Shown here in pieces: positions 1-3,164 of a stretch of 64,000 nucleotides of DNA. The position numbers and the translations under genes were made by a program. The stretch is from assembly GCF_900474295.1 (NCBI RefSeq), contig NZ_UCOB01000015.1:1-64000 (forward strand), in the 5' to 3' direction. This DNA is from Synechococcus sp. UW140. Lineage in GTDB: Bacteria > Cyanobacteriota > Cyanobacteriia > PCC-6307 > Cyanobiaceae. Below the pieces are notes generated by a model. The model had not been told where the DNA came from, made no database searches, and saw only the letters and a program-made list of their open reading frames with translations. Numbering within the stretch: the first letter of the stretch is position 1; every line of letters begins with the position of its first letter.

Positions 1-385
1 CCTTTGGATTGGCATGGATGTAGCGCAATGTATTCAGCACTCGCCTGTGATCTTTGGGAGAAATGGCAGTGGCGTAATACCTGGCTTCCCAAAAATGCCC
101 GCAACGTCCAGAAAGGCGATTCAAAGCCATGGCTGAATACCAGCCAAACCAGTGCATCAGCTTTGGCAGCTGTGATGCATCATCAGGTCTCACCAGCAAG
201 TGCAGGTGATTAGCCATCAGGCACACCGCATACAAGCGATGAGGCACCTTTTGCTTGGCTTTAGAGAGCACAGCTAACAGCACATCCCGTCTCAATCCTT
301 TGGCAATCAGAAACTGACGGCTATTGCACCTCAGCGTGATGTGGAAGGAGTGGCCTGCTGGAAGATAGCGCGGTTGACGTGCCAT
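1..385 (-). CDS. RAYT-type (Y1_Tnp, IS200-like) transposase, 5' part, cut by window edge
   Basis: Translating the minus strand from the ATG at 385 gives 128 residues with no stop before the window edge. It begins MARQPRYLPAGHSFHITLRC, the usual opening of REP-associated tyrosine transposases. The HUH metal-binding motif is NHLHLLV (His60 and His62), and RYIHANP near residues 121-127 matches the helix that carries the catalytic tyrosine (probably Tyr122). The family cuts and joins single-stranded DNA at REP hairpins; many copies are domesticated. The start lies 33 bp from the first possible start of the divergent PqqD-like gene. I saw no REP array nearby. Whether the C-terminus is intact cannot be judged. 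Confidence 0.85.
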   Translation of the reverse strand, partial: MARQPRYLPAGHSFHITLRCNSRQFLIAKGLRRDVLLAVLSKAKQKVPHRLYAVCLMANHLHLLVRPDDASQLPKLMHWFGWYSAMALNRLSGRCGHFWEARYYATAISPKDHRRVLNTLRYIHANPK

Positions 386-418: not shown

Positions 419-727
419 ATGCTAATGATGAGTTTTAAAAGTCAGATGGTTAGTAGCAGCAAACGTTTTAAGCAGCATTCCCAAGCTGTTTGCACCGAAC
501 TCGATGGCGGTGTCGCTTTATTTCAAAGCGACACCTGCGACTATCTAGTTCTCAACGAAACAGGCTCAGCCATTTGGAATGCACTAAAATCTCAACCTAC
601 GTTGGTTGAACTCTGCAAGCATTTACAGGACGAGTATGAAGTCACCCCAGATGAATGCAAGACCACTGTTGAAGCATGGCTGGAAGCCGCCTTGGAGAAG
701 AAAGTGATTGCCGTAGTTGATGATTAA
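419..727 (+). CDS. PqqD-like RiPP recognition protein
   Basis: About 100 residues. The core reads DYLVLNETGSAIWNAL followed by VELCKHLQDEYEV, the consensus of the PqqD/RRE winged-helix family, which binds leader peptides or presents peptides to modifying enzymes. The frame is open from 341, but clustered ATGs at 419, 425 and 428 are likelier starts because 341 would overlap the divergent transposase; the first is given here. The last four bases overlap the convergent acetyltransferase gene. With the HprK-like kinase nearby it suggests a peptide modification system. No precursor peptide, radical SAM enzyme or cyclase is visible, so the partner is unknown. Confidence 0.75.
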   Translation: MLMMSFKSQMVSSSKRFKQHSQAVCTELDGGVALFQSDTCDYLVLNETGSAIWNALKSQPTLVELCKHLQDEYEVTPDECKTTVEAWLEAALEKKVIAVVDD

Positions 728-1290
728 AATGAGAAGTGTGTTTTGAGCTTTCTAGCCCAAATTTCACCGCCAAGTTGATTTCCTCCAAGCATTTGGAACC
801 CAAGGCGTGCAAAATAACGTCGCATGGGTGCTTTTTGCAAGCCAGGATTAATGTTTTCAGCCAGCAATACATTTGCTCGATGATCACGTTTCTCCGCTGC
901 ACGATCAAACCCTTCAAGGAATGCTCTAAAGAGCTGATTTGCTAAACGTGGCTGCCTGTATCCTGGGATTATGTACATGCGTTGAAAGTAGGCATGGGTT
1001 CCGAGTTCTAGTGATTCTTCCAGCTCCCGCAATACGACAAACACAATGCCGTTAATCACGCCTAATTGATCGCGTGAAATAGCGGCTGGCTGCCGCGATA
1101 TGGGTTTTTTAAGCAGATCCATTTGCTTTAAGCCATCGCTGTTTCTTGATGCAATTCTGAAAGATCTTAATTCTTCTTGATATGCATTTCCATACTGGCT
1201 CCAGAAAGCTCTCAGCTCACGCTTTAGCTGATCATTCACCCCTCCAAATACAAATTCAATTCGTGGTTCAGTCAAGCCCCGGTCCCTCAT
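724..1290 (-). CDS. GNAT-like N-acetyltransferase
   Basis: 188 residues. The C-terminal half has the layout of a GNAT fold: a core strand before RMYIIPGYRQPRLANQLF (the acetyl-CoA-binding strand and helix), then a helix and ENINPGLQKAPMRRYFARLGF, resembling the usual NP-x-YxxxGF ending. The N-terminal half is not clearly recognisable. The start overlaps the end of the sulfotransferase gene by 23 bp, suggesting translational coupling. It is third in the minus-strand set HprK-like, sulfotransferase, acetyltransferase, and converges on the PqqD-like gene. The substrate is unknown; modification of a peptide or of an envelope component would both fit. Confidence 0.6.
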   Translation of the reverse strand: MRDRGLTEPRIEFVFGGVNDQLKRELRAFWSQYGNAYQEELRSFRIASRNSDGLKQMDLLKKPISRQPAAISRDQLGVINGIVFVVLRELEESLELGTHAYFQRMYIIPGYRQPRLANQLFRAFLEGFDRAAEKRDHRANVLLAENINPGLQKAPMRRYFARLGFQMLGGNQLGGEIWARKLKTHFSF

Positions 1291-2167
1291 ACTGAAAGCG
1301 TTTCATCGCCTCAGACAATCCCTTAGCGAGTCGTTGTCGCTGCTCAATCGTCAGTTGTTCCGCACCCTCACCTGTGCGCCCTGAGCGAAAGAAGCGTTCA
1401 CAACCAGCAGGCTTTTCTGCAAAGCCATCAACATCTTCCTCCAGCTTCTTGAGTCGATCAATGGAGGTATTTTCGAGAGCTTGATCAATTAGATGAGCAT
1501 CATTCGGGAGGCCCAAAAAGGTTGCTAATTTAGTGAATGTTTCTGATCCTTTTGCTAGCATGTCTTCATAGCGCATGATCAACACTGGTAGCTGAGTTTG
1601 ATCAGCCCATGAGCGCACATGTTGATCCCAGCGGCCCATGTGTTGTCGTACTTGATGGCCACCAAAGCGTTCTCCTGGCACCAGTGCTGCACTTGGATCA
1701 AGCAGGGAATCAACACATCGATCCAGCGGCCATGAGAAGAAATGACTGAGTGATACGGCCACATCTTCTGGGTGACGCAGGATATAAACAACACCGGAGC
1801 AACCGGCAGTGCTCACCACCGGACGACCACGTGAATCAGGAGATTTAAATGCATCATGCACTTTGTGAAAGCGCTCTCCTTCTGCGAATAGCCACGCACT
1901 GGCACCAGCACGTCCGCGCAATGGATCAAGTTCACTAAAACTTAGATCGCAACTATTGATTCCTAATTGATCGTCCAGCCAAAGCCTGGACGAGGCAATC
2001 GCTCCAGTCTCAATGTCTTGATTAAGGTTTAGTTCTTCTCCAGGATTGTCTCCTGTCAGCCTCATCAATTCAGTAATAAAAACCCGGCACCAGGTGTTGC
2101 CTGATTTTGGATATGAGGCCAGATACCAGTAGCTGTGATCTTCAGTCATTGCTTGCATGCTCATCAA
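1268..2167 (-). CDS. Sulfotransferase domain protein (PAPS-dependent)
   Basis: 299 residues. The 5'-phosphosulfate loop is plain at residues 19-26 (YPKSGNTW). A C-terminal FFRSGRTGEGAEQLT matches the PAPS-binding RxGxxG segment, and LRHPEDVAVSLSHFF matches the 3'-phosphate-binding region with its conserved Arg and Ser. The enzyme should move sulfate from PAPS to a hydroxyl or amine; the acceptor is not predictable. Its start overlaps the 3' end of the HprK-like gene by 26 bp, so the two are probably co-translated. The region looks less GC-rich than the core genes downstream, in line with an accessory origin. Confidence 0.85.
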   Translation of the reverse strand: MMSMQAMTEDHSYWYLASYPKSGNTWCRVFITELMRLTGDNPGEELNLNQDIETGAIASSRLWLDDQLGINSCDLSFSELDPLRGRAGASAWLFAEGERFHKVHDAFKSPDSRGRPVVSTAGCSGVVYILRHPEDVAVSLSHFFSWPLDRCVDSLLDPSAALVPGERFGGHQVRQHMGRWDQHVRSWADQTQLPVLIMRYEDMLAKGSETFTKLATFLGLPNDAHLIDQALENTSIDRLKKLEEDVDGFAEKPAGCERFFRSGRTGEGAEQLTIEQRQRLAKGLSEAMKRFQYEGPGLD

Positions 2168-3164
2168 TAGCTTCTTTGCGCTGTTGCATTGATTCGGGTT
2201 GCATCAGGTTCACCTTCTTCAGGCTTTCGGCCATCGTTCTGATTCCATCTGGAACGATCAAGGCATGCAACGGCACCTTTCGAGCTAGTGCAGCTGCCTG
2301 CATAAACAGCTGCGCTTCTGCATCCATGCCTCGATACATCCTGGCGTGAAAGGCTTGGTTACGCAGGCGCATCAAGGCATTTGTTTGCGAGACATTGCGT
2401 GAAGCCTTGATCGATACTTTTTCCACTTCAACGCCCTCTTCAGGGTCATCGTCCTTACCTGATTCCTCTTTGGCACGGTTTAAGGCATAGATCAGCCGCA
2501 ATGGTGTTGGCTGGCTCATGCAATCCAAATCCTGCGCCAATAGTGCATAGCGCTTCAACCCCTTTCTCACCGGTGGCAACTGCGCCCAATTCAGATCCAA
2601 AGCCATAGCGGCGTCATGCCAAAGCTTGAGTTGATGCATCCCTGGTAGAACCAGCCCATCAGGGCCCACGGCAACGAGCTCACTGCTGAGCAAGCGCCAA
2701 CCGTCTTGCAGCAAACACCAGGCCAGGGTGCTCTTCCCGGCAGCTGGATGGCCCAACAGGAGGATGGCCTCACCATCGCGCTCCAGCGCTGTTCCATGCA
2801 AAACCAATGCACCGCGCTGGATGGCTAAGGCTCCAAGCCCACTGGTGACAGCAAACGTGCGGATGTCGCGGTCGCTGACGCTGTCGTCCCAGCGCTGCCA
2901 TTCCAAACGCTCACCATCAGTGGCACGAAACCAGCCAATGCCTTCAAGTTCCAGACGCCATTCCTGAGGCGCCAACTGCAACATTGGCGTGCTGTGAGGG
3001 CTGGGCTGCAGGGCTGGCCACTGCCGGTGATCAGCTTCCACCAGTTCCACCAGCGGTTCACGTCCGGTGAGAACTGCATCGGCTGGCATCAACTCCGGCA
3101 ACGCCAACGACGACGACAGCAACATGCCGAAAGCTTGATAGGCCTCAGGAGACGCTGCAGGCAT
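2142..3164 (-). CDS. HPr kinase-like P-loop protein
   Basis: 340 residues. LHGTALERDGEAILLLGHPA leads into Walker A GHPAAGKS (residues 138-145), with His124 placed like the HG motif of HPr serine kinase HprK. LLSSELVAV follows, where true HprK has a conserved aspartate. The N-terminal ~120 residues are family-specific. HprK-related proteins of this kind are often encoded beside PqqD-like proteins; in some lasso-peptide clusters such a kinase phosphorylates the peptide. It is first in an overlapping set with the sulfotransferase and acetyltransferase genes. No HPr substrate is seen in the window. A generic small-molecule or serine kinase remains possible. Confidence 0.7.
   Translation of the reverse strand: MPAASPEAYQAFGMLLSSSLALPELMPADAVLTGREPLVELVEADHRQWPALQPSPHSTPMLQLAPQEWRLELEGIGWFRATDGERLEWQRWDDSVSDRDIRTFAVTSGLGALAIQRGALVLHGTALERDGEAILLLGHPAAGKSTLAWCLLQDGWRLLSSELVAVGPDGLVLPGMHQLKLWHDAAMALDLNWAQLPPVRKGLKRYALLAQDLDCMSQPTPLRLIYALNRAKEESGKDDDPEEGVEVEKVSIKASRNVSQTNALMRLRNQAFHARMYRGMDAEAQLFMQAAALARKVPLHALIVPDGIRTMAESLKKVNLMQPESMQQRKEAIDEHASND

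Follow-up and report, generated by a model that had tools for sequence, protein, structure and literature searches.

We analysed a window of 64,000 nucleotides (positions 1 to 64,000 of contig NZ_UCOB01000015.1) from Synechococcus sp. UW140 and studied a cassette of four genes near its left end (Table 1). The arrangement agrees with the initial annotation in position and in family: a PqqD-like gene, encoding a RiPP recognition element (RRE; RiPPs are ribosomally synthesized and post-translationally modified peptides), faces three minus-strand genes for an HprK-like P-loop protein, a sulfotransferase of the 3'-phosphoadenosine-5'-phosphosulfate (PAPS) type and a GNAT-like acyltransferase. The minus-strand genes overlap one another, and the PqqD and GNAT-like genes converge with overlapping stop codons. 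The PqqD start at 446 was chosen by eye from the starts in relatives, with 419 as the alternative. The window opens at the start of its contig (C34; the 35-contig genome is 99.98% complete), inside a transposase gene, so that the gene lying beyond PqqD is cut off here.

Table 1. Genes at the left end of the window with their family matches (E-values); type I denotes loci that share the gene order of the window.
Feature	Position	Strand	Evidence and remarks
REP-associated tyrosine transposase (TnpA-REP/RAYT-like)	2-385	-	PF01797, 8.5e-15; cut by contig end
PqqD-family RRE	446-727	+	PF05402, 2.3e-14; in-frame upstream ATG at 419
GNAT-like acyltransferase	724-1290	-	no Pfam match up to E 1; present at 19/19 type I loci
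PAPS-type sulfotransferase	1268-2149 (alternative TTG start 2167)	-	PF00685, 1.2e-17
HprK-like P-loop protein	2142-3164	-	TIGR04352, 1.8e-13; Ser-Glu replaces catalytic Asp-Asp

The PqqD protein scored 53.9 bits against PF05402, above the curated cut-off of 23.4, and thus belongs to the PqqD/RRE family. Its nearest named families are lasso-peptide RREs, with a match to NF033536 (3.6e-13) that stays below the cut-off. Against the PDB, the PqqD profile matched 9x90 (PbaB1) best, at 2.2e-18, and 5v1u (TbiB1) at 1.2e-13. PbaB1 is the WxxP-binding RRE of PMC13381572. In an ungapped, hand-mapped alignment with PbaB1, PqqD carries Asn at G42/N33, Tyr at Y69 and Glu at E75. The HprK-like protein has the Walker A sequence GHPAAGKST and reached 50 bits against TIGR04352, where the cut-off is 200.

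The initial annotation had proposed looking for this gene order in other genomes. On neighbour maps we counted, by eye, 19 loci from 16 picocyanobacterial genomes at which the HprK-like, sulfotransferase and GNAT-like genes follow one another in this order and converge on PqqD. This recurrence rules out a chance arrangement, and the refutation envisaged there, that the four genes never co-occur in relatives, fails. Two of the 19 loci have a broken gene, an N-truncated HprK in a second copy (L032) and a split sulfotransferase (L030). The genomic site varies from cassette to cassette, and genome G012 has a tandem copy. Relatives of the HprK-like protein occurred in 14 of 99 genomes (its own genome and one fragment counted); among 400 genomes of the family, 25 had one at E up to 1e-20. 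Named examples are Synechococcus sp. AG-679-A04, Synechococcus sp. UW105 and Prochlorococcus sp. AG-412-I05. Overall, the HprK homologues fell into two types of neighbourhood: type I, with the window order, and type II, which is lasso-like.

The sulfotransferase of the cassette retains its characteristic sequences (YPKSGNTW, KVHD and RHPEDVxxS). YPKSGNTW, KxHD and RHPEDVxxS make up the PAPS-binding blocks and the catalytic His of this family. YPKSGNTW was present in 19 of 20 type I sequences (absent from the split L030 gene), and KxHD and RHPEDVxxS in all 20, which places the protein among the PAPS sulfotransferases. For the GNAT-like protein, 3 of 13 aligned members weakly matched Acetyltransf_7 (best E 0.0074), and the four PDB matches found up to E 1 were all to Naa10 (E 0.2-0.4). 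Thus, where the initial annotation proposed acetylation, the gene itself proved constant in the cassette and its assignment to the GNAT family stayed weak. The same annotation also proposed that the HprK-like protein phosphorylates a peptide. In lasso-peptide kinases of the PadeK type, the essential catalytic set is His-Lys-Asp-Asp (PMC9266682). Among the 19 aligned type I HprK sequences, the Walker Lys is kept and the His is present in 16 (Asn in G059 and G111, Gln in G118), while Asp-Asp is replaced by Ser-Glu in all 19 (LLSSE in the window); the pair is kept in all 16 of the other sequences. This replacement makes phosphorylation by the cassette doubtful. Judging from these residues, the HprK-like protein is more likely a scaffold or a nucleotide-dependent gate than an active kinase.

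Phylogenetically, the type I HprK sequences formed one clade (support 99/99), as did the type I sulfotransferases (100/100), each next to homologues from lasso clusters and with a single origin. With four other cyanobacterial sequences as the outgroup, the picocyanobacterial lasso-type HprK sequences were the neighbouring group of type I. Lasso genes accompanied by an HPr kinase and a sulfotransferase have already been published (PMC4289311, PMC8498205), and paeninodin-type lasso clusters share with the cassette the RRE family, the WxxP leader motif, an HprK-like partner and sometimes a sulfotransferase. The cassette therefore appears, from its sequences, to be borrowed from lasso-peptide pathways. 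Unlike paeninodin-type clusters, it has no B2 protease or C cyclase, has lost the kinase Asp-Asp and has gained a GNAT-like gene.

The type II loci show what a lasso-like setting of these genes looks like. At the 11 picocyanobacterial type II loci, a transglutaminase-like (B2) protease and an asparagine-synthase-like (C) cyclase were each found at nine (tblastn, with Pfam on five) and a sulfotransferase at seven; on neighbour maps, a GNAT of the cassette family was found at none of the 11. Two loci, L036 and L179, were classed as type II through their Asp-Asp, sulfotransferase and small open reading frame (ORF), B2 and C being seen in neither stretch. Small ORFs with W..P.[IL] were present at nine of the 11 loci (KLEWVTPKISL, KSWIKPEIREI and KLEWQTPEIEI, for example), and each of the nine had one such ORF terminating in Ser; these ORFs were selected by eye from a list that also contains chance matches. 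Four more distant cyanobacteria had YxxPxL as the small-ORF motif, picked in the same way from that list. As an observation in its own right, the type II loci (L179-L188 and L036), with an intact Asp-Asp HprK at 11/11, are candidates for producing phosphorylated and sulfated lasso peptides.

We searched 21 type I stretches for the same partners. With five B2 queries, tblastn gave a single chance-level match (E 0.004, in L172, within a longer ORF on the opposite strand), and no C cyclase was matched, in agreement with the absence of both noted in the initial annotation. The annotation had also named the lack of any conserved small peptide gene as a refutation, and near the cassette such a gene is indeed lacking. 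Within 7 kb of PqqD we found no conserved small WxxP/YxxP ORF: none of 17 candidates was common to distinct genomes (the stretches were covered as far as available, ORFs mostly inside a longer ORF were excluded, and unlinked precursors were not searched genome-wide). The sole candidate pair that was shared, in L027 (AG412) and L174 (G185), comes from a single genome and the same locus. In these stretches the cassette thus lacks all three marks of a lasso cluster, namely the B2 protease, the C cyclase and a small precursor with [Y/W]xxPx[L..]. These results bear on a possibility raised in the initial annotation, that the cassette is one piece of an incomplete or scattered RiPP pathway, with the small precursor and perhaps a cyclase encoded at another genomic site. 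Similarity to lasso tailoring enzymes is indeed seen in the RRE, HprK and sulfotransferase, and G012 also holds a lasso-type locus, L036, that combines an intact kinase with a small W..P.I ORF. Set against the outcome of the search near PqqD, we regard this explanation as improbable. The precursor missing from the cassette is probably no small peptide.

What is conserved at type I loci in place of a small peptide gene is the gene just upstream of PqqD, on the same strand, for a barrel-like outer-membrane protein with a lasso-leader-like motif. The N terminus of the protein looks signal-like by eye; a barrel-like body (about 290 residues) comes next, and the tail makes up the C-terminal end. 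In our table of distances, the nearest barrel with a readable linker between body and tail lay upstream of PqqD on the same strand, 138-1500 bp off, at 17 of 17 loci, each time with a Trp-containing (W-type) linker; six further PqqD loci or remnants had no readable barrel in that table. The family is multi-copy, with 14 matches in the genome of the window (fragments included) and matches in 57 of 400 family genomes. We infer the barrel fold from matches to the Pfam family IAT_beta: the distant relative L038 scored 23.9 bits, over the cut-off of 22.3, a member in L026 scored 18.1, the three Synechococcus barrels scanned all scored below the cut-off, and 5 of 25 nearer members matched at E up to 0.01. 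A PDB profile search with the barrel gave no match up to E 1, an NCBIfam scan of 25 barrels found no meaningful family, and relatives of the barrel or of the sulfotransferase were not found on viral contigs.

The tails of these proteins vary far more than their bodies. We compared 478 barrel pairs with body identities of 85-99.9% (mean 89%). In these pairs, linkers were 79% identical and tails 17%, with 12% for shuffled tails. The tails are therefore hypervariable. Compared with other tails, W-linked tails had more Thr (9.6 versus 5.0%), a median charge of +1 versus -1, more Lys and His and fewer acidic residues, a composition that would be compatible with O-sulfation or Lys acylation without being proof of either. 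By eye, many W-linked tails (for example in L031, L107, L108, L152 and L153) share the frame C...(variable)...HCxPG...GWE with a hypervariable middle. We considered whether the HprK-like protein could phosphorylate a Ser at the very C terminus and disfavoured this: its Asp-Asp has given way to Ser-Glu, and of 58 distinct W-linked tails only 3 have a terminal Ser. Another conceivable substrate was a family of Nif11-leader (prochlorosin-like) peptides, 25 of whose ORFs fell in one cluster (for example L025:13102-13347, L028:16807-17052, L137 and L141). Of 111 barrels, 13 (from eight genomes) have a cluster member no more than 3.5 kb away; two of these genomes (G009 and G026) have no cassette, and by eye none of the 17 WxxP/YxxP candidates near cassettes belongs to the Nif11 family. 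We rate these peptides as highly improbable substrates.

The junction of body and tail carries KKxWxxPxIxxL. Most discrete lasso RREs are described as binding the leader motif [Y/W]xxPx[L/V/I/A/F/Y], and paeninodin-type leaders as typically containing WxxP (PMC13381572). In sequence, the barrel linker matches this published RRE-binding motif. We therefore compared genomes with and without a type I PqqD, reading linkers from alignments and excluding barrels that were too short or had no readable linker (one cassette genome, G111, had none; the barrel end beside a PqqD remnant, L042 on contig C17, was below the length filter and is W-type by eye). All 17 genomes with PqqD had the linker Trp in one or more of their barrels, compared with 2 of the 31 genomes without PqqD (Fisher 4e-11), and the association held when stratified by genus (Mantel-Haenszel 9e-7). 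In the five genera that hold both kinds of genome, Trp was present in all genomes with PqqD and missing in 23 of 25 without. Two misaligned sequences, G281_L208_1501 and G008_L167_847, were scored non-W in this comparison, and it was through its misaligned sequence that G008 counted among the 31; the true linker of G008 also has no Trp. When two more genomes (G005 and G008) were read, the count for barrel-bearing genomes without PqqD became 2/32. Before the PqqD survey, the counts had been 15/15 and 4/33; G170 and G380 then proved to bear PqqD, and moving them favours our interpretation. Per barrel, Trp occurred in 58 of 92 in PqqD genomes versus 2 of 59 in others (the two misaligned sequences included), and the aromatic residue at the motif site was Trp in 60/60. 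Among 6,260 column-residue tests, from which the two misaligned sequences were excluded, as they were from the tail identities, the motif Trp ranked top (6e-11) and the next four lay in the same linker. Barrels of PqqD-less genomes had initially been covered in less depth, at no more than four per genome. We therefore also searched 39 whole PqqD-less genomes with two W-type queries and found no further W-type linker, with linkers read in 31 of them and four weak matches (G180 with three and G308 with one) unread.

The match of the linker and its co-occurrence with PqqD support the initial suggestion of an RRE-guided, peptide-type modification. From the sequences, we consider it fairly probable that the cassette is a tailoring module split from lasso biosynthesis that modifies the hypervariable C-terminal tails of the outer-membrane barrel-like proteins. 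The most serious competitor, which we nevertheless think unlikely, is that the WxxP linker is structural, for instance the through-pore segment of an inverse autotransporter, and that the cassette only co-travels with the barrels, perhaps via the REP transposase, its enzymes acting elsewhere. A related P-x-[IL] linker without Trp does occur in barrels of cassette-less genomes and, by eye, in the distant L038. Co-travel would also fit the transposase beside many copies, the varied sites and the tandem copy. On the other hand, no residue anywhere in the protein is as strongly associated with PqqD as the Trp expected from the RRE motif, and the five mixed genera separate almost cleanly. In addition, the W state changes 12 times on the tree of barrel bodies, which argues against inheritance as one block.

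Several observations weigh against the tailoring of barrel tails. Two genomes, G019 and G025 (99 and 100% complete), have W-linkers without PqqD. If Tyr is allowed and a wider upstream span is taken, 8 of 32 PqqD-less genomes carry a motif (Fisher 2e-7). Within cassette genomes, 34 of 92 barrels have no motif, and such genomes tend to have more barrels and hence more chances for any residue. An independent-pairs control on the barrel-body tree was not significant (median p 1), being underpowered with just 5-6 pairs on well-supported branches; this result also suits a structural linker. The tree tool flagged long branches in the HprK and sulfotransferase trees. The Q79/D70 site of the RRE pocket, said to select Trp or Tyr, varies among T, S, A and E, with D in G111, G118 and G147; since this key site is variable, pocket residues do not predict Trp, and we dropped them as a predictor of Trp over Tyr. 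AlphaFold models were unusable both for the GNAT-like protein from a single sequence (mean pLDDT 37.5) and for the barrel from a three-row alignment (mean pLDDT 26.8), so that the barrel fold and the exposure of the tail rest on weak Pfam evidence. The six genomes added by the wider motif count carry YGxPS[IL] just upstream of the linker (L248-L253: G206, G190, G112, G313, G410 and G298), possibly a Y-type motif at another place.

For the tailoring of barrel tails, the simplest mechanism would run as follows. A lasso tailoring module would have shed the protease, the cyclase and the small precursor, and its new substrate would be the tail of an outer-membrane protein with a leader-like motif midway along its length. 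The PqqD RRE would bind the WxxPxI linker of the preprotein before Sec export, in the cytoplasm, the compartment that holds PAPS and acetyl-CoA. It would then recruit the sulfotransferase, and probably also the GNAT-like enzyme, to Ser/Thr/Tyr or Lys of the tail, so that barrel tails might be acylated beside being sulfated; the HprK-like protein may act as the scaffold or nucleotide-dependent gate. Export of the modified protein would then present the decorated tail at the cell surface. What such display is for, be it phage, grazer or self-recognition, is speculation. In its full form, in which RRE-guided RiPP-type machinery has been retooled to put sulfate (and acyl) groups on the hypervariable tails that whole outer-membrane proteins of marine phototrophs expose, with an internal leader motif and an uncleaved leader (a "RiPP on a stick"), we give the scheme slightly better than even chances.

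Parts of this scheme have parallels in known systems. Linear polyphosphorylated peptides (LPPs) combine an RRE and YxxP in a conserved part with a highly variable C terminus and often adjoin lasso clusters (PMC13381572). Unlike the cassette, they involve peptides of 35-200 residues in Bacillota and a signal-peptidase-like enzyme (PMC13381572), whereas the motif here is embedded within an outer-membrane protein. Paeninodin-type clusters likewise differ in substrate, the putative one here being an outer-membrane protein of roughly 300-430 residues. In autotransporter glycosylation (BAHT, HMW1C-like), dedicated cytosolic enzymes modify a type V passenger before export, which sets a precedent for the proposed cytoplasmic tailoring; those enzymes are sugar transferases, described as recognising sequons or a structural motif instead of a leader sequence (PMC8151025). 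Inverse autotransporters (type Ve) resemble the barrel-like proteins in having a barrel-like part followed by a C-terminal passenger, which here is reduced to a short hypervariable tail. In the literature searched, judged mostly from titles and the openings of abstracts, we found no prior description of an RRE-linked outer-membrane substrate or of the cassette.

The initial annotation had also raised a polysaccharide-linked role. PqqD/HprK pairs are linked with capsule loci elsewhere, and many sulfotransferases act on sugars. By contrast, the recurrent neighbour of the cassette is the barrel gene, the nearest solved relatives of its RRE bind peptides, and the neighbour maps lend a polysaccharide role no support; modification of a surface polysaccharide by the cassette is thus highly improbable. 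If tailoring of the tails is true, bacteria would have an unrecognised way to alter their surface chemistry, and RRE-guided modification would extend from small secreted peptides to full-length displayed proteins. It would show how cell-surface chemistry can capture a natural-product tailoring module. A large family of hypervariable proteins in marine Synechococcus, cells whose surface is exposed to phages and grazers, would also gain a function. A single Trp would then predict which surface proteins are modified.

Some minor features of these loci were also recorded. The REP-associated transposase (6.8e-18 and 65 bits against NF047646 in the window, below the cut-off of 80) is found at many loci in the interval that separates PqqD from the barrel gene, on the strand opposite to the two; examples are the window, L026:12771-13559 and L032, and mobility of the cassette is a possible reading. 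Remnants were seen as well: a truncated PqqD beside a barrel end in the genome of the window (L042, contig C17) and an HprK fragment adjoining a barrel fragment (L041, in G004), which suggests cassette loss. In distant cyanobacteria (L038-L040), barrel-plus-beta-helix proteins adjoin asparagine-synthase and HprK genes with YxxPxL small ORFs.

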